NCBI RefSeq assembly: GCF_963576615.1
Contig: NC_088711.1
Coordinates: 11,092,869-11,156,868 of the forward strand
Direction of reading: 5' to 3'
DNA: 64,000 bases
DNA from: Watersipora subatra
Lineage: Eukaryota; Bryozoa; Gymnolaemata; Cheilostomatida; Watersiporidae
Position 1 is the stretch's first letter, and each line of letters opens with the position of its first letter. Shown here one piece after another: positions 5,896 to 58,275 of this stretch. Below the pieces are notes generated by a model. It worked only from the letters and a program-made list of their open reading frames with translations. It was not told the DNA's origin and ran no database searches. The position numbers and the translations under genes are program-made.

Positions 5896-8800
5896 ATGAC
5901 CATGCTTATTATGCAACAATGGTCAGTCTATTCTTTTTTCCTGATAGGATACCTGTTGGGGAGTGTCAAGGTAAGAACTTGCTATCGCAGAATACATCTT
6001 TGTTTCTGTCGTGATTGCTGTTGTACAATTTGTGTTCATTTTTATTCCTGCTACATGATTGATTTACCCACCTAGAACATTTTACAAGAACTTCAATGTA
6101 AAAAGATACTTATGACAATCGTGCCATGGCAGGTTTTGAAAAATATAAAATGTAGTTTCATGTTATAGTCTGCTGTAGTTTGAGGAAGAGCACAATGTGA
6201 TATCACTTGTTGTAATTTGGCAGAAGCTATCTAAGACTATTAAGATCATTTGGGAAAGGTTTCGCTGGAAATTCCTACAATTAATGGGGTTGTTGGCATT
6301 TATTTTGATCAAAACTGGTTCTGTATTAAGTGTGTTGTACAAATCAAGCATTGTGAAGCTGCAGTGTTAGTTACTTGTCCGCCGTGGTTATCTCATCAAC
6401 TAACATGCCTATTTCCGGTGTTGGTTACTTGTACGCCGTGGTTACCTCATCAACCAACATGCCTGTTCATTAAATAAGTTTTTAGATTGATACACTACAG
6501 CTGCTCCTCGTGTCTTCGCTTGCTTCACCCAACATCTAGTTTATGCATTTTCTATGAAGCAAATGTGATTCATTGAGCATAAATGTCCCAGCGGTAGAGA
6601 GCAACTAACATTGCCATACAATGACTGCCAGCAGAATGGATATGAAACTCTTATTATTTTGATAAAAATGAAAACAATTATTTCTTAGGTTGATTTATGT
6701 ATATCTTCAAGCGCGCAATTGCCATCTATTCTAAAGGTCTTTGGGTTGTGTTCATTTAATTGATAGAAATTACACTAAAATTGTGGCCTTGAGTGCTGCT
6801 GCTGTCATTGAGAGTGCCTCTTGTTCAGCTACTCATAGCAGTTGTAGTAGAGCAATTAATTTACTGCGAACCTTTTATAATGGTCTGAGATGGTTTGCTT
6901 GAATTCTATATGTTGGTTTCTTTCTACCAATTGAAATTTCTGGTTTTGGCAAAAAATTGTTAAGTGCTACCTGCAGGTTTAGAACAATGATAGGTTTATA
7001 CCCTTATCACCCGCTTTGGCCGATGGTCCACACTCTATTTTTACATTAACAAACTGTAGCTTTGTTGACAGTCTCATTGCATAAGTTGCGAACAGCTTAC
7101 AGGGTTGTCCTATCATTAGAAAGTTATTTCAGTAGAAGCAATTCCTTATAAAGTTCTTATATCGATGTTTATGCTAGTTTTATGTTACTGCTAACCGTGT
7201 TAGATTGCTTACCCTTTTATCCTTCTGACTCTATAGATTGAGGCTTTTAAAACAAGTATGTCTAGACATCTTTTAATAATACCAGATTGAGATGAGCAGT
7301 TTATTAAATCAAGGTAGTTGGCATGGCGTAAATTGAGTGAAATTTGTATAACATGTTCTCTCATCACACACTAAATAGCTGATGATTGCAGGGTCACGCC
7401 AGGCTGATAGAGCCCGCCGGCAGATCGACCGCTTTTAGGTATGGATACGGTACGCCTGCCAATTACAATGACAATCAACTCTTCTGCGGTGGAGTTCCGG
7501 TAAGTGGCTCTTGTTCAACTGCTTATTTTATGATGCTCAAAAACACTCTTTAGAACCCAGGCTTTTAGGGACAGTATTTAAGTGACTAGTAGACTAGAAG
7601 AGAGATGCAGCCCAAGATAGTTGCAAGCCAATATGTAGCATGATTGTGTGTCAATATTATGTATAATATATACATATATTGTAGTACATAATATATGTAT
7701 ATACATTATGTAACATTTATGTATCATATTATTATCATATATCATATATATGATATAATATATATAGATATCATATTATGCATCATTTATGTATCATGCT
7801 AGTTTTGACAATTGTAAGCAAAAAAATTTTGTATTTGCTTCTTATGCGTCATAAGAAACAATTGATGTAGGCTATAAACAGATATACTGATTTTTTAGGT
7901 GCAATATTCACAAAATGGTGGAAAATGTGGTGTATGTGGAGATCCATACCATGGACCTATACTCAACCAACCTGGACCGGATAATATCTACGCTACAGGT
8001 GTTCTTACTGCCAAGTATACCGAAGGGCAAGAAATATTAGCCAAAGTACAGGTAGGTATTATATCACCACTGCAACTTCTATGGTGAAAACTTTGTGAAA
8101 ACAGTGTTTACCATTAGAACGAAAAAATCTCGCAAGTCAGGCAAGTTTTGGTTCCTCAAAGATTTGTATCGAATGTTTCATGCTTATGAAAGATGGAAAC
8201 ATCACAAGCGGATGATGCAGAAGAAAATGTCACATAAGCTTTTCCATTTTAAACATCTTTCACACTTCAGTCGTTGTATTTTGAAAGTGCGCTGCTAAGT
8301 AATAGAAGAGGGCGCCGCTATGACCTCGGGCATAGAATTCCTTATTTTTGCAGCTAAGCAGCCATATTAATCCATTACACGCGAATGTCTTAAGAAACAC
8401 AGTGCACAATAACTTAATGTGCGCACAACTCCAAATCTGTATTATCCACGCAATGGAAACAGCGATAATCTTCATAGGCACGGTTGTGTAAGGTAACATA
8501 ATATCCGTGATCACATGACTAGAGCTAGTGTTATATAAGGGTCCTGTCAGAGTCTCCTAGTAGTTGTCATTACACATACTCAGCCCTTGGCTGGCCACGC
8601 ACTTGGTGCCCAGTTACAATATCAACATCCTTGCGTAAGCATAAAGTTCTATCACGCAGTCATGTTCAACGCCCCTTTCAAGACCCTGAGTAAATATTGT
8701 CTTAAGCTAACAAGAGTGGGATTCTCTATTTCTTGTTGTGTCATTCAACTAAGCTTTTGGAGCTAAACTACAATTCATGACTGTTCTTTTGACAGCTCAT

Positions 8801-11800: not shown

Positions 11801-14800
11801 CTATTGGCAGCGTATAGGCCTATTGGCAGCATATAGGCCTATTGGCAGCATATAAGCCTATTGGCAGTGTATATTGACTTTTTTAAAGAAAATCCCTAAG
11901 TTTATCTTGAATTCTGCTTAAAGATGAACTTAAACAAAATATTAGTAGGTTTTACCTGAATGCCGATACTTTTTGATAAAATACGTGCCAGAAAAAAAAA
12001 GAAAAATACCGATATTTTTTTCTATCATTTGCTGTTGTTTTTTTATGTTTGAGGTGATCTGACAACCAGGATGTTTCAAGATTAAAATAAACAAAACTTG
12101 ACCACAGTTAAAACGCTCAGAAGAAAGATACCTGCGCAATGACGCCATTAGTTGCTATCATTGCAATAGTTGATACCAGCTATTGTGCTCAAGTTGCAGC
12201 ATTGCGTGTCTCTATTCCATCAGTCTTTTTGCAAATATAAGTGCCATAATCGTACTTTCGCATGATCTGAGCGTTTTAACCGTGACGAAGTTTTTTCAAT
12301 TTTAGTCTTGAAACAACCTGGCAGCCAGATCACCTCAAACATAAAAAATAATTACAAATGATAAAGAAATACCGATACTTTCTAATACAACCTACTCAAA
12401 TTTTGTGTAAGTTCATATTGTGTAAGTAAATGACCTGCTGGACATGTCTGCTCTTGTCAGAAAACTTGTAGCCTGAGGATCACAATGGTATGCTGGCTTC
12501 CCTTCATAGACATTTGAGTTTTAGTTCTAAAATCTTCTGGAACCAAGTGTTCAAAGCTTTTATTATTATCTAGGAAATAGCTGGGGGTGTGATGATGTTA
12601 ATGGCTGCTGTACCGGCTGTGGAAACCAGGAAGAATTCTATGCTTGTGCTGATGTTAGTATAACTGCTATGGAGGGAGGTGTTCCCACAACTACTACCAC
12701 TGTTGGTCCTACCAATATAGCCTCCAATACTGAAGCTGCGAGCACAACCACGCCTGGTCCAGGAGTTCCTGGTGGACCTGATCCTAGTATGTACCTGTGA
12801 CTTTGTTTAAAACATTGTTTGAAAAGATAATAATTAACATGCAATAACATTTCTTGTAATTTAGTGAAATATTAGCGAAATGCCTGGCGTTGTATTTGTA
12901 TTAAAAAACAGATTATAAACAGTGGCAGGTAATGTAGTTGCCTGCCACTTGCCATTAGCCTGGCACATTGCCAATGGCTAGTTTGAGCAAGCTAGTATCC
13001 ATATTGCTAAACTTACTAATAAGAGCTGTGAGAGCAAGCTTTAGTGATCTTGCTCCATAACGTAATGCAGAGTCACTATGTGTATTTTAACCTAGATAAC
13101 CACTCATATTGCCCAATGAATCTAATGAATCTTGCGTAGCTCAATTGGTTAGCTTATTGCGAGGTGAAAGGGAGATTCCGAGATCAAATCTTCTGTTATA
13201 CGGAGTCTTCATTTCAAGGTTTTAATAACTATTGCTAGGCAGATGGACAGACAATGAGATTTATATAGATTTGAAACTGTGTATGTTAGATTGTGGTTAC
13301 TTACTGATTTTGATGTAAGGTTTCCTTATGTGTTTAAAAAATGCAGGCATACCTAAAGCATATTTCTTGCTAGAAGTCAACAACAGTATCTGTCATTTCT
13401 ATATTTTCTTAAAAATATGTTAATAATGGCATGAGATTGGGACTAACCATACTAGATGAATAGTTAGGCCAATTACACAGTCACTATTTGTACATCTCCT
13501 AGTAACCGTTTCCTTTAATGTAGACCCTGAAACACAAAGCCGTGATTAGTAATTTTTAGCAGAAAATAACAGAGCCCCTAATGCTGGTATGTATTTGTTC
13601 CGACAGCAAACTATGCGCGAGTCTGCTATTACACCAACTGGGCCCAGTACAGGAATGGGGAAGGCAAGTTTACTCCAGCCAACATTGACCCTCACATTTG
13701 TACGCACATCATCTACAGTTTTGCCAAGATAGTCAACGGAAAGCTGGCTGACTATGAGTGGAATGATGTCGGTGAGTTCTGGATCATATGAATTGCACTT
13801 ATTTTTCTTCTAGTCAAGTCGATTTCCAATTTATTTGTTTTGCCTATATTCATCTAGGAATGTACAGACAGTCAAAAAGAAGTATTTGGTGTTTATAGTT
13901 CCTTACTTGTCATTTATCAGTGTTTCCGCATGCTTCAAATCAGTTACTTCTTAAGTGTATCACTGATAGTTCTCTTCTGCACCACACATGCTCTCTCCCT
14001 CTCCCACCTTTCTCCCTCCTTTTCTTCAGCTCACCCTTCCGTTTTGCTTTCTCTCTCCTCTCTTCCTTTCCCTGCCTTCCTCTCTCTGCCTTCCTTTCTT
14101 TCCCTCCCTCTCTCCTCTCTTCCTCCCTTTCGGACTCTCCCTTTTTCTTTCTCCTTCTCTACCTCCCTGTCTCTCCTCTCTCTCTTTCTTCCTCCCTTTC
14201 TTCCTTCCTCTCTCTCCCTTCTTCTTTCTCCCTCTTGCTCCTTCTCTCTGTCCCTCGCTCCCTCCCTCTCCCTCCCTCTTTCTCTCCCTCTCTTTTTTCT
14301 CTCACTCACTCCCTCAGTTTCTTACTCTCCTCTCTTTCTCTTTTTTCTCTCTCTTCTCTAGCTTCTCACTTATGTTATGCCTCTTTGCAGCTGCGGAATG
14401 CATTATAACTATTAATCCTTTTAAAGGTAGATGGAAAATATAATCCAATGTTGGCAAAAAAATTAGACCTTTTTATTTTTCTAACAGAAATGACAGCACA
14501 GATTATACAATTAAAGAACACAAATCCTCAGCTAAAAGTACTCCTAGCAGTTGGCGGATGGACTCATGGCTCCGGCCCTTTCACAGACATGGTGGCTACC
14601 AGCAGCAAGAGATCCGCGTTCATCTCTGATGCTATAACATTCCTGCGAGGTCGAGGTATGTGAGTAGACACCAATTCAGGGTGGTCAGTGTTATCCAACT
14701 CAACTGTTCAAATCATTTTGGTAACCCTCCTTGGGCACTTTTGGACTTCTTATGTATAGATCTATGTGATTGGATTCCAGTTGCATACACTTCATAACTT

Positions 14801-23800: not shown

Positions 23801-26800
23801 GGCTATCGTTTTTAATCTAAACTAGAACATCTGTAGCCTTCATACTGCTGATAGTTTGTTTTTACATAAAACAATATGGAGTCAGATTCAACATATCCTG
23901 AAGACAAGTAATGAAATTTGGGTAACCGTGATTAGTCGTTAAACCTAAATATGCTTGAGCAAATGACTTTGTAAAAGCTAACACTACAGCTATGATGTGA
24001 TAAGGTTAGACAAACTATGGCCTAGTATGCTCTTACTTATGTACTTACTTAGTACACTACAGCTATGATGTGATAAGGTTAGACAAACTATGGCGTAGTA
24101 TGCTCTTACTTACGTACTTACTTAGTACACTACAGCTATGATGTGATGAGGTTAGACAAACTATGGCCTAGTATGCTCTCACTTACGTACTTACTTAGTA
24201 CACTACAGTTATGATGTGATGAGGTTAGACAAACTATGGCCTAGTATGCTCTTACTTACGTACTTACTTAGTACGCTACAGCTATGATGTGATGAGGTTA
24301 GACAAACTATGGCCTAGTATGCTCTCACTTACGTACTTACTTAGTACACTACAGTTATGATGTGATGAGGTTAGACAAACTATGACCTAGTATGCTCTTA
24401 CTTACGTACTTACTTAGTACGCTACAGCTATGATGTGATGAGGTTAGACAAACTATGGCCTAGTATGCTCTTACTTACGTACTTACTTAGTACACTACAG
24501 CTATGATGTGATGAGGTTAGACAAACTATGGCCTAGTATGCTCTCACTTACGTACTTACTTAGTACACTACAGTTATGATGTGATGAGGTTAGACAAACT
24601 ATGGCCTAGTATGCTCTCACTTACGTACTTACTTAGTACACTACAGTTATGATGTGATGAGGTTAGACAAACTATGGCCTAGTATGTTCTTACTTACGTA
24701 CTTACTTAGTATGTTTTTAATGTTATAGAAGTAGCGCTCATTCTCCTGTACGTCAGCAAAAATAGTTTATCGCCAGCGTGACTAGCTGTCTTTCCCATAG
24801 AGCAATTGGTGCCTTTTATTCCCAAAGACTTGTTTCGTTACGTATATATTATTATCTCACAATTACATTAGAGAGGAAAAATGCTTTACAAAGAGAAAGT
24901 TTGATCTCTACCGAGTGTCCCATAATGCATTTACTGTTGACATCCTAAAAGTGGAACAGTTTGACATCAACAGCTGGCAAATTTTGGTTTAATTGTTTTT
25001 ACGATGGCTGTTTCATAGAATCAAACATAATTAGAGTTTTTTTGTCAGTTCGGCTTGGTAAAGGTTCGTAGAGGTAGATTGCTAGAAATTTTAATACTAT
25101 GATTGGTTTGTATGTTGAGAATGTGAGGCTTACATTGGCAGGCTACGCCTCCTATTATGAGATCTGCTCTAATGCTGAAGTATTCAGCAACCAGCAGTGG
25201 GACCCTGACCACCAATCACCCTACGCGTACCACGGCACCTACTGGGTAGCTTATGATGATATAGCAGCTGTTAACCTCAAGGTAAAAGAGATGAAAGGGA
25301 GTTGTTCTCTCATTATCTGTACTTCGGTCGCTGTTTTACATAGGTTGTGACCTCAATACCGAGTATAAAGTGTTTATGTTGCACAGTGATAAGATCAGGT
25401 ATTTTTGTATGTGTAGTGTCAGTATATTAAAGACCATGGGCTGATGGGAGGCATGTTTTGGGCTCTTGACCTTGATGACTTTCGAGGAACATTTTGTAAT
25501 CAAGGAGAATATCCTCTGATAAACGCTCTGAAAGACTGTCTAACTCAATACACAGGTATGCTTGTATGATTATCAATACATATAATCCCTGTATAAGGTC
25601 TATATAAAGCCTGTATGAGTACAAATAGCCTGGCTTATACAAATATTATGCAGGAAATACCTAGGCCAAACTATTAAACTAAATGTAATATATTCGAAGT
25701 TGCCATTCAAGCATTTCAACTAATAATAATGTTTTTTTTCTGTTTTGATATGTAAAATATAATCTTATTAGCTATGTTTGATCCAAAAGTTCTGAAAAAA
25801 TTTTTTTTGTTATATTTGTGCCTTACTTCCTAAATAAACATATTTACAGCAAATACTGTCTTTGTAGATAGTGTCATGAGTACATTTAACTGAAACCTTT
25901 ATATGTACATATATGTTATCTTAAACCATTTTGCGTATTATGCTATGACTACTGACTAATGACCTTCAATGATTAATGACCTTCAATGACTAATGACCTT
26001 CAATGACTAATGACCTTCAATGACTAATGACCTTCAATGACTAATGACCTTCAATGACTAATGGCCTTCAATGACTAATGACCTTCAATGACTTATGACC
26101 TTCAACGACCAATGACCTCTAATGACCTTCAATGACTAATGACCTCTAATGACCTTCAATGACTAATGACCCTCAATGACTAATGACCTCTAATGACCTT
26201 CAATGACTAATGACCTTCAATGACTAATGACCTTCAATGACTAATGACCTCTAATGACCTTCAATGACTAATGACCTTCGATGACTAATGACCTTCAATG
26301 ACTAATGACCTTCAACGACTAATGACCTTTAACGACTAATGACTTTCAGCGACTAATGACCTTCAACGACTGATGACCTTCAATGACTAATGACCTTCAA
26401 TGACTAATGACCTTCAATGACTGACCGTAAAAAGTTACCTAAAATGTTTTTTCATGAACTTCTCATAGTTTGTATATAAACAACCACATTTTGCTATTCT
26501 GTATGCCTGGGGGTATTGTTCCTCAAGACAAGCATAGGCCGGTTTTACATTAATAACTTATCCTTTAATCAAGTTGTATCGTATACTAGGTGGAAGGCCT
26601 GTGACTGTGACCACTGAACCCGCAGTCACAACTGTTGAGGTTTCCACTACTCCGCCAGCAACCAGACCTCCTGAGTGGTTTAATGGTGAGTCACAGTATA
26701 CAGAACAGCATCACTTTAGCCATGTAGGTACTGTGTAAACTGGTGTAGGTAGTGTGTAAACTGGTGTAGGTACTGTGTAAACTGGTGTAGGTACTGTGTA

Positions 26801-35800: not shown

Positions 35801-38800
35801 TTCAATTTGTGTTCTAAACAGATGTCTGTCTCATATAACAACTGTACTAGTTATTATGATATGCTGCGAGCAATGAACCAGTCAAGTATCAATGCAGTAT
35901 ATATTGATCAGGCTTTTTAACTACTTATTCAATTATTTAATTGATTAATTTAATTTTCAAAACTTTGTCGTTATCTATGACTTTGAACAGATAGAAGGAA
36001 ATGATTTTGTATGGTTCTACCCGACACTTATTTTTGTCTCAGCAGCTTTCCTGTAAGTTATTAGTTCATCAGTCAAACTTTTAGCAAAAACTATCATTTA
36101 CATGGCACACGCTCATAATGCCCTCTGTTAAACAGCATCAACCATAAGCTAGTCTACCTGTTACTTCTCGCTGTGTTCAGGGGAAGATGAAAGACCACCC
36201 GTGTCCCTTCCCGGGCCATCTGAGTCCTCCGTCTCATCAGCAAGTCCCACCTCTACAACTACTACACCAGCGGTGAATGTTGTCACTCCCGGAACAGGCA
36301 ACTGTGGAGGTAAGAAGGTCTCACTATATGCTTCGTGTTCTTGCCAGACATGGTTCAGGCTTTTCTTGCAATAAGCTCAGCGCAATTAAATGTAATGCTT
36401 TATCTAGTTCCTGGTTCTGCTCTCATCAATGCCTTACATCATAAAGGGATAGCATCAGAGAGTTACATTGACTATCACTCAGCTGCAATTTTTTGTCTTG
36501 TCAGTACTCATTGGTTTATGTTTTGTCTTGTCAGTACTCATTGGTTTATGTCGTAACTAGGTCAACTAGAACTTTAGTGAGTGTGCAGTTTTCAGAGATG
36601 TACTAAATCGTAGTTCGTCGTCTGCAGAGTACGTTTTGGTGACAAACCTTTTGATGCAAGTTTGACTCCTTTGATTTTATGATAAACTTTATAAATCGCT
36701 TATTGTTGTCCTGTCAAATTCAGCCACTGACAACCATTGAGTCTGCAACCGCACCTTCAGAAAACCTACTCCGGGTGTTGAAGAAATATATAATCTGTTA
36801 GAGCAATTGTAACAAATGAATACAAATAGACTCGCTACTATTTAAGATGCTCCAACTGGGCTGTAATATATTCTTTTACAATGGCTTTTTAGCATTTTGT
36901 CAGTTGAATCACGCAACTCCTTCGTCATTTTAAAAAGATGAAATTTTTTCCCCTCTGAATTGCTAACGAGCACATAGCTATCAACATATGTACATGCAAT
37001 TTCATAGCAGTATAAACTTTGCTAGCTGTGTACATAGGTTGCTAAGCATTCTTTTTTGTAGATGAAATTATCTGTAGCCCAGGCTCATTCGCATTCATCC
37101 CTGACCCCTGCGACTGCACTAAGTACTATCAATGCGCTTATGGCACGGCTTACCCAGGAACCTGCCCAGCAACCCTGGTTTGGGACACTCAGCGCAACCT
37201 CTGTAACTATGACTACCAGGTTGCATGGCCTTGTGGGACTGTTGGTGAACCAGCATCTGTTGTAAGTATATTCATAATACGCTTTAAATGTGTTAGTAAC
37301 ACAGAAGTGCTGCGCTATTGATTGAACTACCATTATAAATAGTAATGACATTGTTTCAGGCGACAGCCGCATCCACCCAGAGTACTTCCATCGATACGCA
37401 GACCGTTCCGCAAGGCAACTTCTGTGACAGTGAGTGTTAATAAACTAGCTATAAGGAGAGCGGAAGGCTGATTCGTCAAGTTTTTCTTTTAGCCATGGTT
37501 CTCCTTGGTTTTTACTCTTGTTTATTTTCTTCATATTTTAGACTACTACTAATTAATTAATCCAATTTGGCTATTTTTAGCTTATAGAGAGCTTTTTATG
37601 CGTACGTGTACAGTTTTTGTTGAGCATAGCGTTAAACTCTAGACAAGATTGTAACGCCCTTGCACTCGGGTTTTATTCTAACTACGTAATACTTTTATTA
37701 AAATTCATGTGTATTGTTTAAGTTATGATAATATTGTCGGTATACAGACATGTTGTTGGAAAAACTTCAGCACAGAAAAGGTTCAATATTTAACAGATAA
37801 AACATCAATTCTTGGTGACAGAAGGACTGAGAGAAGCATATTGCTCTTACCAGGCAAAATCATTGCTGATGATAGTATTTGTGAAGGTTGCTGCAAGAAT
37901 ATGTCGCAAATAAAATGGGATATCTGTCACTTGTTCTCACCATCGATTGCTAGTCGACTTACATATGCCATCTTCACATACTAGTATCAAAAAGGTTTCC
38001 AAATTTAGAGTCGATAAAATTAAAATATAATCATGATAATGCTGCCTGACTATTTTTTAAAAATTTATAGTTGGAAAGTATTTTTTACTCATTGAGCATG
38101 TGACCAACTAATCACAAACTTTAGGGTAAAAATAAGTTGGCTTCATTGTCTATTAAGACATATGGTTTATAGATCTCATCTGTCACAAGTACAGTTGGAT
38201 AAACTAACATACAGAATAACTGAATGATAGCAAGTACAATGGTGCATGTGTATCTCTACGTCTCTACATCTCTACGGCTGGCACTTCACAGCAGCTGCAT
38301 AATTTGTTACCTTTTACTGAAATCCTATTTTGTATTTTTTTGAATGTCTATTTTAACTTTTGCCGATTATTGGCATTACGCAGCCTGTATTCTCTGCTGT
38401 ATACTCATCGCCATGGCTACAAAGAGTACACAAACTACCGTTTTAACGTTATCTCTTTCTATGATTTTTAAATGGGCGGAAAACCAGTGTTTTGGAATAT
38501 GGCTTATTTAAAAAGAAACGCCCTAAAACATCTTGATCTGTCAGCCTGATCAAAAGTCATGCTCACTGCACCGGTGAGCTGTCACGCTTAGAATATGTAG
38601 AAATATTGTACGATGTGTGAAAATCAAGAGTTGCTGAATGTTCATATCAGAAGCGTTGTTGCACTCACTTACACCATGAATAGATATGACTCATAGATGA
38701 CTCATTGATGACTCATTAACTATAGATATTGTCTAAACATTCTCCAACATCGGCTCCGTTGTTATCTGGGTCGCCTGTAGGCTCAGTCTCACGGTATTTA

Positions 38801-41800
38801 TGAAGAGATGCATAAGCCAATTAAATATTAACTTACACACAATTTTAGTAGATTCTATCAAAATCTATCGAAATTTTTCTATTATTTGAAACTGTTTTTG
38901 ATGTTTGGGATGATGGGACAGCCAGGATGTTTCAAGACTAAAATCAACAAAACTTGATTGTGGCTTAAACACTCAGAAGAAAAATACGTGCCGAAATGTC
39001 ATTACAAGTTGTGCAGCTGCCTGTCTTGCCTCTCTTTCGCTATTTATATCGGCTATTGCGTCACGCGTCTCTATTCCGTCAGTTTCTTCAACAAAGGACA
39101 ACTATAGATGCAATATTTCGCTTGAATCTGAGAATTTTAATCGCGATCAAGTTTGGACGATTTTAATCTTGAAACATCCTGGCAATCAGATCCCCTGAAA
39201 CATCAAAAACAATCACAAATGATAGAAAAATATGGATACTTCCTGATTAAATCTACAAAAATTTTGTGTTCAATTTTGCGACAAGGTCATAAATTAATAA
39301 CAAAAACTAAGGATGACAAGTACATTAACTAGTAGCAACGATAGTAAATGGTGTATCATGAAGCTGGTATTCTGCTGCAGACTATGTGCGGGAATGCACA
39401 GCTGCTGGAGACTTTGAAGATCTCTGCAACTGTTACCAGTTCTACAAGTGCAATCATAATGGAGCTACTGCTGTGATAGTCCCTTGTGCGTCCGGAACCA
39501 TATACGATGGCTCCATATGTAACTGGCCACGTAATGTAGCTGCAGACGAGTGTGACCAGGTAATAATGAGTCTTAGTCAAAAGTATTCGTGTGGAAATGT
39601 GTTGTCATGAGTAGGAGTGAATGGATACCAGGAAACCTCAAGGGATTATGAACAGGTTAGAGTGTGACCAGGTAGCAGTGAGACTAGATAGCAATTAGAC
39701 TAGGTAGAGGTGTAACCAGGTAGCAGTGTTACTGGATAGCAGTGTGACCGGGTAAGAGCGTGACCAGGCAGGGGCACACTCAGGGTGCGATCACGTCACG
39801 ATACAATCATATGGGAGTGTCATCAGGGCGAGTCAATGATTGGAGCTCTGTTACTCTCATAGACTATAGTCTAATAGTGTCTGTTCTTTTATAAACATCA
39901 TAAGGAAATACTAATGTCTGTTGGACTTTTTTTATGAGACAATTTTCTAGGTGTCTTTTATTTGTCCACGAATTCGCATCACAAATAGATGGTCTGGTAT
40001 AAATGATAGCTTTTACAAAATATCAGATGTTTTCTGGTAAAAAAATATATCTTTGTTCTACTATTTGGAAAAAATGGTATACATGTAAATGATATAATTT
40101 GGACAGAAGTGAGATGCTTACGATTACCTTGTATGGTCTCTTGTAGCCAACTTATCCAACAGTTCCTACAACTACCCCCGTTACAACCGCTTCACCTGCT
40201 GATACCAGTGCACCTAGTGTAACATCTTCCAATGATCAGAATGCTCCTGGCACCGTTGTGTATGTCGTTCCTTCAGAACCAGAGACCATTACACAGCCAG
40301 AGGTCACTACTCCAAAACTGCCCGATTTGGTTAAAGGTTTGTTTTGTTCACAGGTCCTAAGACCTTGTAAACCTGTGTGAGTAAAAATAAACCTGGCATT
40401 TAAAGGACAGTAGGTTATAGTAAGACTAAGGTACCTAATATGGTAATTTCTGCACTTAGTTGTTGATACTCCGGCCTTGACATAGACCGTTATCTTTGCT
40501 ATTGACGTTATATCAACTTCTTTGCTATTGACGTTATATCTACTTCTTTGCTATTGACGTTATATCAACTTCTTTGCTTTTGAATACATCTTACTGATAT
40601 CTGGTTCCCACTGCACACTATTCAAGCACTGTATAGACTGGTAACTGAGGAGATGAGTGCAAATATTCGTGTAATAGACACTCTGGGCATGTCATATCAG
40701 ACCATAAGGGATGTTAGACTTTGTGAAACTTTCTCATTCACTTGGAACATGTAAACCCTGACGGAGTCAGGTGCTGTCTCTGTCTCTATGGGTTGAGATA
40801 CTTGTATTTGCTATATTAAAATGAATGCTGAACATTCTAAGAATTTGATAATTTCTTGATAAATTTTTTAAAATTATTTATTAATTGCAATTACAAATTA
40901 AATATTTCATAGCCTACCAACACTCAACTGCTTATGTAAAACATTTCAAGGAAAAATACTTTCCATGTAGATGTCCCAAACATACATAAAGTCTGTCGTT
41001 TTGAATAATTAAATAAGGGTTTCCTTAAAGCTGTCTGTTCCGCCACTCATGCTGCCCCTTCATCTATGCATAGTGAATGTAAGTTCTCATTGTGAACAAA
41101 AATTAGTTCTAAAAACAAGTCATTGCATTCATCTTCACCTCCACAATGTTTTCCCTGACCCTGTTATTCTGGCTAGAGCAGTTAGATTAGACAGCAATAA
41201 GTAAACTTATGTGTGATTAGGAGGAAAATGCAATTTGAATCAGGTTGGTCTATATACATATATAGACACACATAAACATACATATAATATATTTCTATAT
41301 ATACATGTATATATAGAAAAATATATGACCATGTCATACTATTACTGTATACAGCGGAGACTTGAAACGAGTAAGAACTACTAAGCTTATGTGTACATAC
41401 ATCTTATCTTTTTTGACAAAAGATTAAAATAGTTAACGATTCAAGGGAGACTTGATACAGTTCACTTAATACAATTACTATGATGTTTTGAGTAATATTC
41501 AGTGTGGACCAGACCTTGGAGTGTAAGACTTGTTTTTTATGTTAATCCACATTTTTTGCTAGCATTGTTGATGACCTTGACAAATATCCTATAAAAGCTG
41601 GTAATGGCAGTGATTTGACACGAGTTGTCTTATGGTAGCTCCATGGAAGAGAGTGTGCTACATAACCAATATGGCGGCTGATCGACCGACCGGTGCCAGA
41701 TTTACACCCGCCTATGTAGATCCTATGCTGTGCACCCATGTCGTCCTCGGTTATGCTGCCATACAGAGCAATATCTTGCGGCAGACAGGATATTCCGATG

Positions 41801-44800: not shown

Positions 44801-47800
44801 TGATAATAATGATAATAATGATAATAATGATAATAATGATAATAATGATAATAATGATAATAATGATAATAATGATAATAATGATAATAATGATAATAAT
44901 GATAATAATGATAATAATGATAATAATGATAATAATGATAATAATGATAATAATAATAATAATGATAATAATGATAATAATGATAATAATGATAATAATG
45001 ATAATAATGATAATAATGATAATAATGATAATAATGATAATAATAATAATAATGATAATAATAATAATAATAATAATGATAATAATAATAATAATGATAA
45101 TAATGATAATAATAATAATAATGATAATAATGATAATAATGATAATAATGATAATAATGATAATAATGATAATAATGATAATAATAATAATAATGATAAT
45201 AATAATAATAATGATAATAATGATAATAATGATAATAATGATAATAATGATAATAATAATAATAATGATAATAATGATAATAATAATAATAATGATAATA
45301 ATAATAATAATGATAATAATGATAATAATGATAATAATGATAATAATGATAATAATGATAATAATGATAATAATGATAATAATGATAATAATGATAATAA
45401 TGATAATAATGATAATAATGATAATAATAATAATAATGATAATAATGATAATAATGATAATAATGATAATAATAATGATAATAATGATAATAATGATAAT
45501 AATGATAATAATGATAATAATGATAATAATGATAATAATGATAATAATGATAATAATGATAATAATAATAATAATAATAATAATGATAATAATGATAATA
45601 ATGATAATAATAATAATAATGATAATAATGATAATAATGATAATAATAATAATAATGATAATAATGATAATAATGATAATAATGATAATAATGATAATAA
45701 TGAACAATATTACTTATGAATAGAAAGACGATTAATGACAGCTACAAACTTTCGCTTTTTTGTAATGCTTCAGGAGACGCACCAGTTGAAAAGAATCGGC
45801 TTTCTAGCTTGCTCGAGGCCTTCTACTTAGCATTTAATGCAGAGACTGCGAACCAGGAGTCGGAGAAGCTCATACTCTCCGCTTCTCTGTCTGGCGTCAG
45901 TACTGTGATCGCTCATTCGTATGACCTATCAACTATCTCAGGGTATGCACACCCAGACATCTATAGTTCTATTGTATTACCTATCAACTATCTCAGAGTA
46001 TGCACACCCAGACATTTATAGTTCTATTGTATGACCTATCAACTATCTCAGGGTATGCACACCCAGACATCTATAGCTCTATTGATTTGGAGTTCATGGC
46101 TCACTTGCTAAGCTGTAGTTTAGGATTAGAGCGTCAAAGGATTCTATCAGTATCACCACTGAAAGATGGGAAATTATGGGATTCATCTGCTCCTACCTAC
46201 TCATAAGATTTTATTATTAATGGTCTTGCAATACAATTAGAGAAAATGCATTATTTATAAGAGAATTTGCTACTCGGTCATGATTGCCATCAGTAATGTA
46301 TGTCTCCCACCATCACTGCTCACGGCTTTAGACTGCTGACTGTTTGGTAATAATGATAATGATGGTAATAACTTTTCCAGTTTAGAGACAATTAGTTACT
46401 CCATGCATTGCAGGCTTGTAGACTTCGTCAACTTGATGTCCCTGGACTTGAGTTCGATAGATGATGAAATAACTGCTCATCATGCTCCTCTCTACTGCGA
46501 GACTGGTGACTGTGTGGTATGTCAACCATTGACCTCTTGCTTTACAGCTTTGTCTTTTTATGTTGGCATAAAACTGCAATTCAGCTATCTTAGCAACCCT
46601 CAGCAATGCCATGAACAGTAGCTTCTAATTACATAAACGATACCTTTTCTCTGTTGCCAAACCAGTAGTCATCTTCTCTATGTTGTATATAATGTCATGA
46701 TTAGTTGAACCAAACTGCATAAACTACACTTTTTTCCATTACTAAACTAGTGGTTGTCTTCTCTTTGTTGTTAAGAGAAGACAACCACCATTCATGATAT
46801 CCTATGCTACTATTCATAAGATGTCATCAATGGCAACCCCTGGTTACATAAACTATATCTGATCTCTGGTTACATTAAATTTCCTTTCTCTCATGCACCA
46901 GACCAGTGGTTGTCTTCCCTATGTTGAATAGAATGTCATAAACAGTAACACCTGGTTACATAAGCTATACATGTATTTTCTCTCTGATTACATACAATGT
47001 CCCTTCTCCTCTATACCAGACCAGTAGTTGACTTCTCTAAGGTGTATGGAATTCTCATAACGTATACATTAAACACTTTAAATGTAAGTTGTTACTTACG
47101 TTTGTCTCATCAAATTGTACCTCTAGCATCTAGTAACCTTATTTATCCTGCATGCAGCCAAGATCACTCCGAATGTTGGTCCATGTTGGCTATATCTATC
47201 AATTGTTCAAACTTTTCCTAACCGATTCAGTATTTGAGTGTTTAATTTTATGTTCCTTTTAAGCTTGTCTCGTGTGGTCTCTGAAACAATGTCACATAGC
47301 ATTAGAGCCATTCCAAAATTGACTTTGAATATGTAAAGGTATTAAACTTCATTTTGAGCATTTCAAATCCGTTAAATATGTTTAAGTATAACATTTTAAA
47401 TGTAGGTGTTACTTTTTCTACTAACAAGTTAGTAGGTATTTGTAATAATAATAAATATTACTCCATAAATATTAATAGTATTACTCCAGTAATATAATAG
47501 TATAATATATAATAATATAAAGTATAGGACTGTATTTCTACTGAACATAAAAACTTATACATTAAAGAACTTTTCCTTTTTCGTTATGCACTAGTAGTGA
47601 CCTCGGAGATGCATGGATTTCTTTCATATTCGATAAGATAGTTCGTAGGTGGGTGTTTAGGCAGAATTTCAGAAGCTAGATGGAGTTTTGAAATCATTTA
47701 TTTTTAGAGACTTGAAAGAAGGCGCAGATGATATGCATGGGAAGTTTGTATAAACTCAGGCAGAATGTGTGGAAGTGCATAACATTTACGCAGACTAACA

Positions 47801-50331
47801 GAAAGACATACAATGAAAAAGAGGGCGTTATTAATATAGATAGTTCCTTATAAAAATATGCCACTGAGACATCAGTGTCAACATTGCTATATAGCACATT
47901 GGGACCACAGACTAAATTAGTACCACATGCTACATTAGCACTGCAGACCACATTGGCTACAATACTACATGAGACTGTATTGTATTAGCATTGCGTGTGA
48001 AATTACTCCTGCTTGAATGACTAGGAATTCGCCCCGTGATTCCCTCTGCGCCCCGTGATTCCCTCTGCGCCAAGTTAAACTAATGACCCTGTAAATAGGT
48101 CAAGTGTTTGTTTTGTGCCTCTATCTCTGCTGTTAGTAGGTAGTTCCATAGAGAGGTGTCCATAGAGAGGTGACCATAGAGAGGTGTCCATAGAGGGTCC
48201 ATAGTATTATTCTAATAACGTTTTATCAGGATACAGGAGTTAAGACACTTATTGATGGAGGGTTCTTAAGAGACAATATTGTCTTAGCCATCCCTGCCTA
48301 TGGCCGCTCCTACACACTTGCCTCCTCTAGCACTACAGGCCTCGGGGTTGGCATACTTGGAGAGACACCCCCAACACAGCTAACGAATGAAACGGGTCTC
48401 TTAGCCTACCACGAGGTAGGTAACTTTCAATGGTTAAACAAAATGCCCTGTCAAACTATTGTCACATACGGTAGTTCTCACATTTGAAAGTTAGTCATAG
48501 CAAATTCTCCTTAGATACACCAGTCATTACTAAACAATTAGGTGGTAGATGATAGTAAAAAAGGCTTGCTGTTTGCTAATTTTAAGGTTAAAATTCTGTT
48601 CATCTAGCATTCTTTATTCATGTTTAGATCTGCTCTGAGGCAACTTTTATGACCCATGCAGTGGTTGACGAGGAGATGAAGGTGCCTTATACTTACATGA
48701 CTAATATTTGGGTTGGATATGATAGTCCATCATCAGTCCAAGTTAAGGTAGGCAGAATGTGGTCGACAACTGCCAGTTGGTTTTCATCAATTATAAAACC
48801 TTGTATTGTCGATCATTGATGTTTTGCCTTTAGGTGGACTACATCAAAACAAACAATCTAGCAGGAGCGTTGCTGTACACGATAGACATGGATGACTTCG
48901 GAAACAAGTGTGACTCCGGAGCCTTTCCTCTAATGACAGCAATCAGTGCTGACCTAGAAGAAGGGGGTCCAGTAGCATCCGCAGACCAGACACCATGGGG
49001 AGTGTCAACAACAGAGTCATCAGCAAATCAACTTTCTGCTAAAATTGGGGTATGTACAACTGTGATATACGTTTCTTGTGTTTAACGTGTATCGCTGGTA
49101 CATAGGTCACTTCGTAGTCTCTAATCAGTGTGTGCATTGATCTAGGGGCACAAGAAACTTTTCGACAAACAGTTGTGGTGAGGATATAAATGCATGGCAT
49201 CAAGCTTGATAATACATGCTATTGGCTGAGGCAATGGCTGGCATGTCAAGGCTGTTCACCAATTATAGTAATTCATTTCATGGTTTCACTCATTCAGAAT
49301 AAACTAACAGATAACTGCCTCAATACTATCAGTCGTTTTAGGTTTTTTCCTGAATTATCACATTTATTTTGGCTGTTTGACCAGATATCATGCTTTACCT
49401 TGCTTTCTTTCTCATTAACATAATGCTGGTTCACACTATATCATGGTACGTTAGCATTAACCACACATAGCTTCGGTGATTATCTGCAATAACAATATTT
49501 CTACTATCATAAATCCATCCGCTTTTACATCAGCGATTAGTTCGTGACACGGCATTCTCATTATACAATGCTGTTGCGGAAATGATGACGTACTAGTCTC
49601 GCAGCAACTGTTAGAAAGAGAAGATAAGTAGAGCAATCTGTGACGGCCAATACTCATCGCCGAAGTGGTGCCCACCGAAGTGGTGAACTATCAGGAAGTT
49701 TGACAGCTGCAATTTTTTTTACGTATCCGCGTTGCCTTGACGATGCCATCCGTTACAGTGCACATAGTCAATGAATAATCATCGAGAGAACGACTCCAAC
49801 ATATGATGATATAGTGTGAACCAGCCTTTGGTCTCACCTTGCGTCTGAGCAATGCCTGAAAGATCGAGTTGATGTCTGCTTAGCTCACTGCGAACAGAGG
49901 CAGTACATGTTTTCATCAAGAGCATTGTTGCACAAACATGGCCTCTGGGATTTTAGCTGGGCACTTATCTCCGGAAACCGGAGACATGCCCGGTTGCAGA
50001 AAACAATTTAAGATTGGATGTCATTCCTGTCACCGCTGTTGGGCTTTTTGAGAATCGAACCCCAATTTGTTGTTTATAGGTCGGTTGTTCTAGACCTCGA
50101 GGCAACTGCTGCACTCACATTAGGGTTAAACTCAAAGACAAAATAAGAATGTTCTATATAACTAGATGAACTCACTAGTATGTCGCTCAGATATCAGATT
50201 CAGTACTTCTGACACTGCCAGTCTTAACTGCTTTTATTTCTCTAGTAATTCCATTACTTTAGGAAAACTGATGTTGGTCGTGTTTACAGGTGATGCTGCC
50301 AGTTGCTCTTCTCATGCTTATCTTCCTGTGA
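5896..50331 (+). CDS. modular AA15 LPMO - GH18 - GH18 - 2x CBM14 - GH18 protein, predicted GPI-anchored
   Basis: There are 34 coding exons, 5082 nt in all, giving 1693 residues and a TGA stop at 50329-50331. Every splice phase I derived is consistent and the total is a multiple of three. Approximate residues: signal peptide 1-26; AA15 27-225; Thr/Pro linker to 260; GH18-1 261-632; linker to 664; GH18-2 665-1034; linker to 1076; CBM14-1 1077-1143; CBM14-2 1167-1226; linker to 1290; GH18-3 1290-1650; stalk; hydrophobic tail 1681-1693. The expected job is attack on chitin at the cell surface: AA15 enzymes oxidatively cut crystalline chitin using copper, GH18 hydrolyses the freed chains, and CBM14 binds chitin. 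Only GH18-1 keeps the catalytic Glu. Alternatives are two or three separate transcripts, but there is no internal stop, start or signal peptide between modules, and linker exons join them in phase. The exon chain is strongly supported; the single full-length transcript is an inference. Confidence 0.85.
7640..7800. repeat. AT-rich TATA-type low-complexity tract
   Basis: A run of ATATAT/ATCATAT with internal inverted repeats, in the intron between exons 2 and 3. Confidence 0.7.
8052..10241. other. intron 3 of the LPMO-chitinase gene
   Basis: Apart from one foldback MITE copy at its 3' end I see no gene. Open frames here have no homology that I recognise. Confidence 0.5.
9565..9985. mobile_element. 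foldback MITE, family A, copy 1
   Basis: It has a left arm with TGCCAGGATGTTTCAAGATT and a right arm with its reverse complement (AATCTTGAAACATCCCGGCA). The arms continue with ACTTGA...GTTCAAACGC and its counterpart GTTTTAACCGTGATCAAG. The same structure occurs three more times in the window. No coding capacity is visible. The ends are approximate. Confidence 0.75.
11765..11872. repeat. 19-bp tandem repeat, about 5.5 copies
   Basis: The unit is CCTATTGGCAGCATATAGG with small changes, in the intron between exons 5 and 6, just before a MITE copy. Confidence 0.9.
11915..12420. mobile_element. foldback MITE, family A, copy 2
   Basis: It has the same inverted arms as copy 1 (CCAGGATGTTTCAAGATTAA on the left; TCTTGAAACAACCTGGCAGC on the right) and the same middle section, including TTGTGCTCAAGTTGCAGCATTGCGTGTCTCTATTCC. 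It lies in intron 5. Confidence 0.75.
13130..13260 (+). repeat. tRNA-like SINE fragment
   Basis: GCGTAGCTCAATTGGTTAGC resembles a tRNA 5' half with an A box. It is followed about 35 bp later by AGATCAAATCT, a decayed B box. There is no intact cloverleaf, so this is a SINE relic and not a tRNA gene. Confidence 0.4.
13985..14370. repeat. polypyrimidine tract (CT-rich, about 380 bp)
   Basis: Nearly pure C/T on the + strand, made of CTCTCCCT/CTTTC units, in intron 7. It opens long frames in all + frames (Ser/Leu/Phe/Pro-rich) and one on the - strand (Glu/Arg/Gly-rich). These are low-complexity artefacts. Such tracts can form triplex (H-DNA). Confidence 0.9.
17000..17225 (-). repeat. tRNA-derived SINE-like element, minus strand
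   Basis: GATCGAACCAC is the reverse complement of a Pol III B box (GTGGTTCGATC). It is followed by CTAGTGCTTGGCACTGCGGAGTACTAG, which resembles the tRNA anticodon-arm region read on the minus strand. It lies in intron 9. The ends are uncertain. Confidence 0.4.
20035..20345. repeat. short tandem repeat of GTGAGTTACAC(G/A)TTAGATACAC type
   Basis: Alternating units of about 10-11 bp (GTGAGTTACA, TTAGATACAC) run to within about 25 bp of the exon 10 acceptor at 20370. Confidence 0.85.
20985..21145 (-). repeat. tRNA-derived SINE-like element, minus strand
   Basis: ACTTCGAACCCATGAC is the reverse complement of a good Pol III B box (GGGTTCGAAGT). Tract GCACTAATTGACCAC further right could be the reversed A-box side. 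It lies in intron 10. Confidence 0.45.
22115..22548. mobile_element. MITE with about 65-bp inverted ends and 8-bp target duplication
   Basis: The left end GAGTATAACTGGAGTGGCTC, continuing AGAACCTGGTCAC...GGGGGAATTTTCTGTTTTTGT, is repeated inverted at the right end (ACAAAAACAGAAAATTCCCC ... GAGCCACTCCAGTTATACTC). GTTATTAC flanks both sides (22107-22114 and 22549-22556). An 8-bp duplication suggests a hAT-type non-autonomous element. Its right edge is only about 15 bp from exon 11. Confidence 0.85.
23043..23750. mobile_element. putative MITE with imperfect short inverted ends
   Basis: The left end AGGCCTAGTTCTGACC and the right end GGTCTGAACCAAGCCTA are imperfect inverted copies about 700 bp apart in intron 11. 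No clear target duplication or coding frame was seen. Confidence 0.45.
23980..24715. repeat. 73-bp minisatellite, about 10 copies
   Basis: CTACAGCTATGATGTGAT recurs at 23984, 24057, 24130 and so on (period 73). Within the unit is a short subrepeat of ACTTACGTACTTACTTAGTA. It lies in intron 11. Confidence 0.95.
25940..26425. repeat. 17-bp minisatellite (AATGACCTTCAATGACT), about 27 copies
   Basis: Perfect and near-perfect units, with occasional longer units carrying CTCTAATGACC, in intron 13. Confidence 0.95.
26590..26685 (+). other. exon 14: Thr/Pro/Val linker between GH18-1 and GH18-2
   Basis: A single 96-nt exon (phase 1 at both ends) encodes about 32 residues rich in Thr, Val and Pro (for example [17 protein letters not shown]). 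It is likely O-glycosylated. Being symmetric in phase, it can be skipped without breaking the frame. Confidence 0.8.
26720..26960. repeat. 21-bp minisatellite (GTGTAGGTACTGTGTAAACTG), about 11 copies
   Basis: Starts 35 bp after exon 14, in intron 14. A subset of the later copies has GCG instead of GTG, showing directional spread of a variant. Confidence 0.95.
27755..27905. repeat. 22-bp minisatellite (TGTGCTGATCTGCAGCATAT), about 6.5 copies
   Basis: A repeat in intron 14 with a PstI-like CTGCAG in each unit. It makes two shadow open frames on the minus strand. Confidence 0.95.
29860..30055. repeat. degenerate repeat of about 35-40 bp, about 5 copies
   Basis: Units of GAGGGTGACATTAGCTACTG and AAGCACCTGTTT lie just upstream of exon 17. 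Confidence 0.75.
30880..32275. repeat. 56-bp satellite array, about 25 copies, with alternating monomer types
   Basis: The unit contains TGCCAGATCAGTGTTAGTCA, then CTGATAAAGATAAAGATATAG and TCTCACCCCTTACTG. From about 31130 on, copies mostly alternate between GTTAGTCAC and GTTATTCAC. It fills most of intron 17. Confidence 0.97.
32832..33195. repeat. 23-bp minisatellite (CGCCCCTTACTGTGCCAGATACT), about 15 copies
   Basis: It starts 45 bp after exon 18. Its core CCCCTTACTGTGCCAGAT is also the end/start junction of the 56-bp satellite on the other side of that exon. It generates three shadow frames. Confidence 0.95.
33440..33670. repeat. 45-bp minisatellite, about 5 copies
   Basis: Unit GACTAATACTAGCTACTGCA then CTCACCTGACTGAAAGTCACTCTTT. 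The period is a multiple of three, so it makes a shadow open frame on the minus strand. It lies in intron 18. Confidence 0.95.
34600..35015. repeat. 34-bp minisatellite, about 12 copies
   Basis: Units of ACTCTACTGTATATTCCCTG then TTGTTATACTTATG follow exon 20. Since 34 is not a multiple of three, the shadow proteins cycle through all three frames ([20 protein letters not shown]). Confidence 0.95.
36181..36309 (+). other. exon 22: Ser/Thr/Pro linker
   Basis: This exon encodes about 43 residues rich in Ser, Thr and Pro ([17 protein letters not shown]), ending in CGG just before the first CBM14. It is phase 1 at both ends and probably an O-glycosylated spacer. Confidence 0.8.
36485..36545. repeat. 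30-bp direct duplication
   Basis: TTTTGTCTTGTCAGTACTCA then TTGGTTTATG occurs twice head to tail, in intron 22. Confidence 0.9.
37062..37429 (+). other. exons 23-24: CBM14 (peritrophin-A) chitin-binding domain 1 plus spacer
   Basis: Exon 23 (37062-37261) encodes [33 protein letters not shown] and WPC. This is the six-cysteine peritrophin-A pattern with the aromatic KYYQC core, plus one extra cysteine in a CDC pair. CBM14 binds chitin. Exon 24 (37360-37429) is a short Thr/Gln spacer. An overlapping frame on the same strand is a shadow. Confidence 0.88.
38821..39275. mobile_element. foldback MITE, family A, copy 3
   Basis: Left arm AGCCAGGATGTTTCAAGACT and right arm AATCTTGAAACATCCTGGCA, with the shared centre (GTCACGCGTCTCTATTCCGT). 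It lies in intron 24, ending about 100 bp before exon 25. Confidence 0.8.
39381..39559 (+). other. exon 25: CBM14 chitin-binding domain 2
   Basis: This exon encodes [20 protein letters not shown], then [17 protein letters not shown] and DEC. It is again the CBM14 cysteine frame with an aromatic YQFYKC core, and again with an extra Cys in a CNC pair at the same place as domain 1. [12 protein letters not shown] is the typical C-terminal half of the family. Confidence 0.88.
40147..40336 (+). other. exon 26: Thr/Pro linker before GH18-3
   Basis: About 63 residues rich in Thr, Pro, Ser and Val ([15 protein letters not shown]), likely O-glycosylated. The exon ends in phase 1, matching the start of the third GH18 module. 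Confidence 0.8.
40490..40580. repeat. short tandem repeat, 3 copies
   Basis: CTTTGCTATTGACGTTATAT followed by CAACTT or CTACTT occurs three times, in intron 26. Confidence 0.85.
41220..41340. repeat. AT-rich tract with TATATA palindromes
   Basis: ATATATAC/GTATATAT inverted segments in intron 26. Confidence 0.6.
41804..43820. other. intron 27 of the LPMO-chitinase gene
   Basis: Around 42373-42470 it holds TAATGGTCGAGTGGTCTAAGG followed by CTCTGCACTG, which resembles the 5' half of a Leu/Ser-type tRNA but lacks a convincing B box, so it is a SINE or tRNA relic. No gene was seen in the rest. Confidence 0.45.
44757..45705. repeat. long (AAT/GAT)n microsatellite, about 950 bp
   Basis: Built from ATAATG and ATAATA trinucleotide blocks, mostly (AATAATGAT)n, it fills about half of intron 28. 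It makes poly-Asn/Asp, poly-Ile/Met and poly-Ile shadow frames over 300 codons long; these are not proteins. It ends about 70 bp before exon 29. Confidence 0.98.
45921..46080. repeat. 55-bp tandem triplication that includes the 3' end of exon 29 and its splice donor
   Basis: CTATCAACTATCTCAGGGTA occurs at 45926 and again near 45981 (donor changed to AGAGTATGC) and 46036 (donor intact). The first copy straddles the exon 29 border at 45942/45943. Confidence 0.95.
46517..48229. other. intron 30 of the LPMO-chitinase gene
   Basis: Contains degenerate copies of an element of about 120 bp with CCAGACCAGTGGTTGTCTTC at about 46640-47060. Near 48135-48200 there is a small CATAGAGAGGTGTC repeat of about 4 copies. 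No coding region was seen. Confidence 0.5.
49425..49825. mobile_element. MITE with about 21-bp inverted ends
   Basis: The left end GCTGGTTCACACTATATCAT and the right end ATGATATAGTGTGAACCAGC are perfect inverted copies 400 bp apart, in the last intron of the LPMO-chitinase gene. No open frame of note; I could not settle the target duplication. Confidence 0.75.
50035..50115 (-). repeat. tRNA-like SINE fragment, minus strand
   Basis: GAGAATCGAACCCCAA is the reverse complement of a Pol III B box (GGGTTCGATTC). It is followed by CTAGACCTCGAGGCAACTGC, resembling the tRNA 5' half read backwards. It lies in the last intron. Confidence 0.45.
50290..50331 (+). other. exon 34: hydrophobic C-terminal tail, probable GPI-anchor signal
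   Basis: This exon reads [13 protein letters not shown] then TGA, in phase 0 with exon 33. A short hydrophobic C-terminus with no cytoplasmic residues, after a small-residue stretch ([11 protein letters not shown]), is the usual GPI-attachment signal; Ser/Asn at about 1670-1673 could be the omega site. The acceptor (TTTACAG) is good. A secreted protein or a very short transmembrane segment is less likely. Confidence 0.7.
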
Positions 50332-56288: not shown

Positions 56289-58275
56289 GTCGCCTTTTCT
56301 GTCTTCTCTTCTGAACAAACTGTTCTCTTTAACTGTTGGTATTGGATTAACCAATTATATCTACAGCACCAAAACGAACGGCTCGTAGCACTCTATCGAT
56401 TATTATAAATCAATTAGGTAAGACATCGCCTTCGGCTATTATTGGTTTCTTTTGGAAAGTAAAACGGACATGGCCTGAAGTGCTAGAGAAAACTTAGGAG
56501 GCAGACTTATAGCTGCCAGAGTGAGTTGGTAGACAAAGGAATACACGCACTCATCATTTCCTATAGCTCATAGTTCAGCTGTTGTCGCTAATTTAAGATG
56601 ACAGTTGCTGACTGATTTTATTACATCTTCGGAATCAATAAAATCAGTGCTGCCAAACGTTTCCTTTATCATCACGTGCTTTCTGCTGTAATTCAACTAT
56701 TAGTCATCAATATCAGAACCTGTAGAATTTTTCTATCTTGTTTAATACTCATCTGCACTCTGTCATGACTTCTATATGGTTTATCTTAGAGTTGTCTTAT
56801 CTAAATAACACAACTCCATTCCGACTAATAACTTGAGTAATAGCGAGAAGCATTAGATATCTGGTGTCAGAGAGTGTACATATTTCAGTAAAACTGTACA
56901 TGTATGCAGATACAAGGCAAAAATACTGGCCCAGAGAGTGTACACATTTCAGTAAAACTGTACATGTATGCGGATACAAGGCAACAATACTGGCCTGTTT
57001 CGTATCAACTTTTCTGCAACATCTTTGCTTATCATTTCTTATTATTAATTATCGCGAGCAAAATTTTAAAATCATGACAATAACATTTACGGAAACGCAT
57101 CAGCAAGCAAAGAACCTGCTAAACTTCACTACTTTGTAAACCCTTAGCATATACACAAACTGGTTTATTGATATGTATAACCCTGGTTTATCACCTAGCA
57201 ACGCAGTTGGCATAGATTTATATAGAATAGAAATAGAATTACCCTTTTTAACTTCTGTTCTCATAACTTTGTTGTGTTTTGAATATATTCCAAAGGACCA
57301 TTTCCTACTCTTTTGTTGTCAACATGGTGGATGAAATGGTTGATGGAGATGAGTATACTGACACAGGGTTTGATATTAACATGATTTATATAAACATATA
57401 TATTTTTTGTCCAAACCTATTCAAACAAGGAAAGCCTATTGTTAACTGGAATAAGTTGCAACTAGTGTTAAGTAGTAAACCTTTCCAAGACGTGATTCTA
57501 TCAACAAGAATTACAGGCTGCTAATAAATAACTTGGTGTTTCTGACATTCAACAATAAAGCTTGTTTAGTTATTATTATATTCATCTGTGCTTGTCATAA
57601 CATTTTTTCCATACTTATAATGATTTTACCAGCGCTGCTGCGGTATTTGTCATGAAAACTTTGAATGTCAGCTGAATGATAATATAGGCTTTGGTCAGAA
57701 CTATATGGAGGTGCTGATCTGTGACTTTAAACAACTTTCTCAAAGTTTGTCAAAAAGATTTGAAAAAGTTCTTGCTAAAACTTAATAGCCTCCTTTTTCT
57801 GTACACCCTATTTCTTAATTTGAGGTTGTCAAAACAAACCCTCCTCAGCGATTAGCCAATGGTTTTATAAATATGTAGTGGTAATGACTGCCAGCGTAGT
57901 ATGCTATCACTATGTGATAACCTCACTCAAATATAGCCTCAAATACATTGATATTAGTTTGCTTGCATCACTTTGTCTAAAAACTTTCATGCTTTGTTAA
58001 GGTTACATGCTTGCTGGTGCTGAGGCTAGAGCACTCATTGCTCACTGCTTAGTAATTGGCAGGTATGTATTTAGGGAACGCAATGTGCGGTCACCTGAGA
58101 GCAGCTGTTGAACTAGTAAAAGAGTGCAGGCAATCCTGTAACTAATCACACTTGCTCCAACTTTATAAACAATTAGCTGTGGGTTCAACACGACTCTTAA
58201 AACAACTTCTCCTCTTCGAAGCAACATACGAAAAAGATAGTGGTGAGGTTGGAGGTTGTACAACTACGACAGCGC
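56289..58275. other. spacer between the divergent SPRYD3-like and peroxidasin-like genes
   Basis: This spacer of about 2 kb separates the start codons of two genes that point away from each other, so it should hold both promoters. I could not place a TATA box or initiator. It holds a 64-bp direct duplication at 56868-56995 (AGAGTGTACA at 56871 and 56935). No coding exon is supported; short open frames here match nothing I know. Confidence 0.5.
56868..56995. repeat. 64-bp direct tandem duplication
   Basis: Two copies of a segment beginning AGAGTGTACA and containing TTTCAGTAAAACTGTACATG lie between the SPRYD3-like and peroxidasin-like genes. Confidence 0.92.

Follow-up and report, generated by a model that had tools for sequence, protein, structure and literature searches.

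The locus raises the question of whether a single animal gene joins an AA15 lytic polysaccharide monooxygenase (LPMO) to GH18 chitinase modules and CBM14 domains on one chain, or whether two neighboring genes have been read as one, and what such a chain would do. In the 64,000-nucleotide stretch of DNA analyzed here (the window), we consider it likely that a single animal gene encodes a multimodular protein that degrades chitin and is secreted and probably tethered to the cell surface, a reading drawn from the sequence and its comparisons.

Exon borders were placed manually on the basis of open frames, homology, and splice sites, and a script then joined the exons (Table 1). All 32 introns are of the GT-AG type, and the joined exons give a single open frame without an internal stop (4995 bases including the stop codon, as recounted). 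The predicted chain consists, in order, of a signal peptide, the AA15 LPMO, an S/T/P-rich linker, GH18-1, a linker, GH18-2, a linker, two CBM14 domains, a linker, GH18-3, and a 13-residue hydrophobic end. The initial annotation had placed a complete AA15 domain, three GH18 modules, and two CBM14 domains on one continuous chain, and this chain, with three GH18 folds, is upheld by the gene model and by Pfam; all of the parts named there were recovered on the plus strand, within the ends given, and the count of 34 exons and about 1690 residues became 33 exons and 1664 residues on rebuilding. The 34th exon, if real, most likely sits between the two CBM14 exons. A consensus donor, GTAAGT, at 37262 would let exon 23 end in phase 0, with one extra small exon needed before exon 24; the donor used in the model, GTGAAC at 37245, keeps the frame without an extra exon.

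A few other borders leave some choice. For exon 13, either of two acceptors separated by six bases could be used, and among the 32 donors none is weaker than that of exon 20 (AAG|GTTCTC at 34564). An earlier end of exon 20, at 34538, followed by a micro-exon was considered and dropped; the frame continues to 34564, and the corresponding site is used in modules 1 and 3 as well. A 55-base tandem repeat in three copies (45919-46084) begins within exon 28 and copies the sequence around the exon 28 donor; using a downstream copy as the donor would shift the frame, because 55 is not divisible by three.

Table 1. Features of the predicted gene (positions in the window; + is the forward strand)
Feature	Position	Strand	Basis or remark
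Coding gene model	5896..50331	+	33 exons, 1664 aa, joined by script
Exon 1, signal peptide	5896..5970	+	Sequence; predicted cleavage before His27
AA15 LPMO domain, residues 27-222, exons 2-6	7392-7499, 7899-8051, 10242-10369, 11302-11405, 12574-12786	+	Pfam LPMO_10; PDB 5msz; copper ligand columns
S/T/P-rich linker, residues 223-260	Encoded by end of exon 6 (12574-12786)	+	
Intron 6, AA15/GH18 junction, 820 bases, phase 1	12787..13606	+	Donor and acceptor scores
GH18-1, residues 261-632, exons 7-13	13607-13771, 14488-14655, 16491-16704, 20371-20494, 22564-22729, 25142-25281, 25417-25555	+	Pfam GH18 1.9e-95
Exon 14, linker, residues 633-664, S+T+P 47%	26590..26685	+	
GH18-2, residues 665-1033, exons 15-21	28518-28679, 29369-29528, 30128-30349, 32664-32787, 33770-33958, 34445-34564, 35213-35342	+	Pfam GH18 1.6e-72; active-site columns
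Exon 22, linker, residues 1034-1076, S+T+P 51%	36181..36309	+	
Two CBM14 domains, residues 1077-1197, exons 23-24	37062-37244, 39381-39559	+	Pfam CBM_14, 2 stretches
Exon 25, linker, residues 1198-1260, S+T+P 51%	40147..40336	+	
GH18-3, residues 1261-1620, and start of C-terminal stretch, exons 26-32	41639-41803, 43821-44033, 45774-45942, 46414-46516, 48230-48415, 48628-48747, 48834-49049	+	Pfam GH18 7e-64; active-site columns
Exon 33, 13-residue hydrophobic end and stop; possible GPI signal or membrane anchor	50290..50331	+	

A dispersed element of ~400 bases occurs in four copies (9559-9980, 12017-12408, 38821-39269, and 61780-62198) that are 70-79% alike and lie in both orientations; it looks like a MITE, with ends that can be aligned to one another in inverted orientation. 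Another dispersed repeat, of ~340 bases (8123-8461 and 15564-15904), is inverted and 72% alike. Intron 27 holds ~105 copies of ATAATAATG (44758-45703), with long spurious ORFs on both strands, and large minisatellites were identified at 23981-24711 (10 copies of 73 bases), 30901-32275 (24.5 copies of 56 bases), 50881-51337 (18.3 copies of 25 bases), and 62323-63310 (17.3 copies of 57 bases). Three flanking ORFs gave nothing beyond a subthreshold LRRNT match (0.0027) in the ORF at 58201-58488, which has a signal-peptide-like start and may represent exon 1 of a leucine-rich-repeat gene. No Rfam family matched at its gathering score.

The AA15 domain is complete as judged by its alignments, and both histidines of the copper brace are present. 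Pfam LPMO_10 matched residues 29-217 over profile positions 3-183 of 183 (8.9e-16; above the curated cutoff and far beyond chance), and a Thermobia AA15 (PDB 5msz) was the sole PDB chain past the threshold (E value, 1.4e-49; domain residues 1-193). The columns were counted over 44 other AA15 rows, after one short match (P0038, -2 bits) had been dropped: His27 is aligned with His in 39 rows and with gaps in the remaining 5, His117 with His in 42, and Phe211 with Phe in 40. The Phe211 column, which we take to be the axial copper site, has Tyr at the aligned position in Thermobia. The first brace histidine, His27, would be placed at the mature N terminus by the predicted signal cleavage.

Relatives of the AA15 part were collected by word searches that covered proteins of roughly 915-2900 aa and roughly 350-1110 aa. 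These yielded 3 long and 41 middle-length proteins, one of them common to both sets, giving 43, and the 34 named ones are from molluscs (32), the brachiopod Lingula, and the tubeworm Ridgeia. With no tunicate among these 34, and with the other 9 carrying no name, a tunicate source of the window is, by this indirect argument, improbable. One of them (P0004; Lingula anatina, 676 aa) has two AA15 domains, at 30-224 and 519-675. None of the 44 domain rows exceeds 58% identity to the window AA15, whose lineage is therefore poorly covered; in the placement among relatives, no starred set contained it. One-sequence scans of prokaryote and viral collections, a method that reaches close relatives only, picked up 4 viral_contigs stretches and 14 genome_contigs stretches, and no AA15 was confirmed among them. 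For the chitinase part, a GH18/CBM14 word search scored the 7981 candidates that shared most words, and 120 of its 170 matches were listed. At least two GH18 modules were present in 85 of these 120 fetched proteins, and altered motifs were seen in many of the 60 listed. The 163 fetched homologues, with 120 of the 170 GH18 matches among them, contained AA15 in 43 cases, GH18 in 120, and both in none, and the AA15-GH18 architecture may therefore be new for its lineage. This absence weighs little by itself, since the published fusions of tunicates, green algae, and diatoms are also missing from the lists.

The initial annotation had described three GH18 modules and hydrolytic attack on chitin, and such attack by all three is not supported. 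Pfam GH18 matched the chain in three stretches (5.7e-232; above the curated cutoff), and CBM_14 matched in two (1.7e-11; 44.5 bits against a cutoff of 22.1). GH18-1, which matches acidic mammalian chitinase in the PDB at 2e-130, has the motif DGLDLDWE, a DxxDxDxE motif with the catalytic acid, and keeps all 14 of the active-site positions checked. The corresponding motifs of GH18-2 (DGLDLYWM) and GH18-3 (DGLDIAWY) depart from DxxDxDxE and are without the catalytic acid, and each of these modules is unlike GH18-1 at 8 of the 14 positions. Across 39 other modules (each scoring above 80 bits and longer than 250 aa; 19 proteins, hand-picked among the 120, supplied them), the catalytic acid column holds E in 37, against M in GH18-2 and Y in GH18-3, and the column two positions before it holds D in 36, against Y and A, respectively. 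Tryptophans 272, 340, and 601 (module-1 numbering) are kept in GH18-2, and all three are lost in GH18-3. By these residues, GH18-2 and GH18-3 are pseudo-chitinase modules of noncatalytic type, and chitin hydrolysis can be expected from one of the three modules, GH18-1. In the GH18 tree, modules 1 and 2 group together (SH-aLRT, 83), and module 3 falls within the same larger group (89). Tandem duplication of the modules is only suggested by this grouping because of the long branches of GH18-2 and GH18-3 (1.61 and 2.12, respectively, against 0.33 for GH18-1).

The hydrophobic C terminus, which was absent from the initial annotation, bears on where the protein would act. When the exon 33 acceptor is part of the training set, it scores 10.12, the highest of the 269 AG sites between 49060 and 53000; its exclusion from training lowers the score to 8.19, which would place it fourth. 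The acceptor next in rank, at 50080, scores 10.02 and would lead to a different, nonhydrophobic end, and reading through exon 32 adds 11 residues before a stop. We inspected the 23-residue C-terminal stretch for the GPI pattern (small residues and a spacer followed by a hydrophobic tail), and, although the last exon is itself uncertain, the hydrophobic residues are suggestive of a GPI signal or of a short membrane anchor.

In the gene model, AA15 and GH18 lie in one open frame, joined across intron 6, and the junction falls at 12786/13607, as in the initial annotation, with ordinary splice sites of matching phase 1. The intron 6 donor, left out of training, scores 5.94 (ninth lowest of the 32 but in the top 4.3% of 4000 GT sites), and the exon 7 acceptor, at 6.88, lies slightly above the middle of the 32. 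Upstream of the GH18 domain, the exon 7 frame extends no further than 13582 and contains no ATG. Seven of the eight intermodule introns are in phase 1, against 14 of all 32 (P = 0.006, with the module borders set by the analyst and the exon 23/24 phase picked to keep the frame), an excess expected for modules joined via phase-1 introns. We consider a single chain probable. Under the alternative, which we regard as unlikely, the locus holds a pair of adjacent genes: a short AA15 gene made of exons 1-6 that terminates within intron 6, and a multi-GH18/CBM14 chitinase whose own signal-peptide exon lies in that intron or upstream of it. If intron 6 is retained, the AA15 part stops after PDPSMYL, and the absence of any fetched protein with both domains would fit such a pair, as would an ATTAAA at 12900, although a poly(A) signal of this kind is uninformative in AT-rich DNA. 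A new signal peptide before exon 7, which the initial annotation had named as a sign of two separate genes, was sought in intron 6, and one candidate was found, a hydrophobic 23-residue stretch starting with ATG (12974-13043) and followed by a phase-1 GT that would join exon 7 in frame. However, that donor (TTA|GTGATC) scores -1.37, a value equaled or exceeded by 52% of the 4000 GT sites, and equally good start candidates occur in 22 of 112 noncoding 820-base pieces and in 95 of 500 shuffles of intron 6. The candidate counts for little because comparable ones arise at chance level, and a signal-like start with a near-consensus donor was found in no intron. The AA15 exon, moreover, closes with an S/T/P-rich linker and an ordinary donor whose phase matches that of exon 7.

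A single chain could also serve chiefly for structure or binding, as a matrix or chitin-scaffold protein to whose work the enzyme modules contribute little. Two of the three GH18 modules are noncatalytic by their residues and have long branches, and the shell matrix list of abalone includes proteins with chitinase and chitin-binding domains (PMC6003135; the "AA15" in that text is a residue number and not the enzyme). However, GH18-1 retains its full set of checked active-site positions and AA15 both brace histidines, and we consider a chiefly structural role quite improbable. Separate AA15 and GH18 enzymes have been reported to act synergistically on chitin in insects (PMC5823890, PMC9156745). 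For the chitin-degrading protein that we favor, signal cleavage would free His27, and copper held by His27 and His117 would allow AA15 to cut crystalline chitin oxidatively, creating new chain ends. The tethered GH18-1 would then hydrolyze the chains cut by AA15, the fusion placing the hydrolase at the new ends. The CBM14 pair, and perhaps GH18-2 with its retained cleft tryptophans, would hold the protein on chitin; GH18-3, which has lost these tryptophans, more likely serves for spacing or for protein binding; and the S/T/P-rich linkers would give reach. With its C terminus acting as a membrane tether, the protein would remodel chitin close to the cell. The gene itself probably arose when an AA15 gene was joined to a multi-GH18/CBM14 chitinase gene via phase-1 introns.

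A fuller version of this proposal is a membrane-tethered chitin-degrading machine of an architecture new to animals, with one LPMO and one chitinase on a single chain and two noncatalytic chitinase folds for binding or spacing. We advance it tentatively, at a little short of even chances. If it is true, oxidative and hydrolytic attack on chitin would be covalently coupled at an animal cell surface, and the AA15-GH18 chain would offer a natural way to learn whether tethering makes the attack on crystalline chitin more effective. The anchor would point to local remodeling at the cell surface and not to bulk digestion, and the presence of an intact GH18 module together with two decayed ones would make a clean case of enzyme modules becoming binding modules.

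The fusion had been thought perhaps undescribed, which the literature does not bear out: a 2018 paper already documents AA15-GH18 fusions from Chlorophyta, Bacillariophyceae, and tunicates (Sabbadin 2018, PMC5823890), and the fusion type is therefore not new. The same report describes AA15 fused to GH19 in Oomycota and Haptophyta, as well as C-terminal extensions, CBM14 included, in about one-third of the AA15 members of other species. Our predicted chain would share with the published fusions the joining of AA15 and GH18, the level at which the two were compared; the gene model has three GH18 modules (two of them noncatalytic), two CBM14 domains, and a hydrophobic end, and its nearest named AA15s are from molluscs. 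In the literature searched, we found no description of the order of three GH18 modules, two CBM14 domains, and a hydrophobic end, and titles and abstract openings there, with subscription journals mostly outside the scope, named no AA15-GH18 protein of molluscs or their kin. A published AA15 group shares the hydrophobic C-terminal segment, and the passages on that group mention neither GH18 nor CBM14.

The single-domain Thermobia AA15 (PDB 5msz) shares with the window protein a whole AA15 domain and the histidine brace, whereas the aligned position that we presume to be axial is Tyr there and Phe here. Thermobia AA15s are described as consisting of the catalytic domain only (PMC5823890). The remainder of the chain resembles the multi-GH18 animal chitinases of the chitinase 10 type, in which several GH18 modules are likewise combined with CBM14 and some modules, often the first ones, have altered motifs; unlike the window gene, none of the 120 GH18 proteins listed contains AA15. 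Chitinase-like lectins such as chitinase-3-like protein 1 are not known to carry the catalytic acid, and GH18-2 and GH18-3 resemble them in having a GH18 fold of this kind. However, the best PDB match of both GH18-2 and GH18-3 is chitotriosidase and not a lectin.
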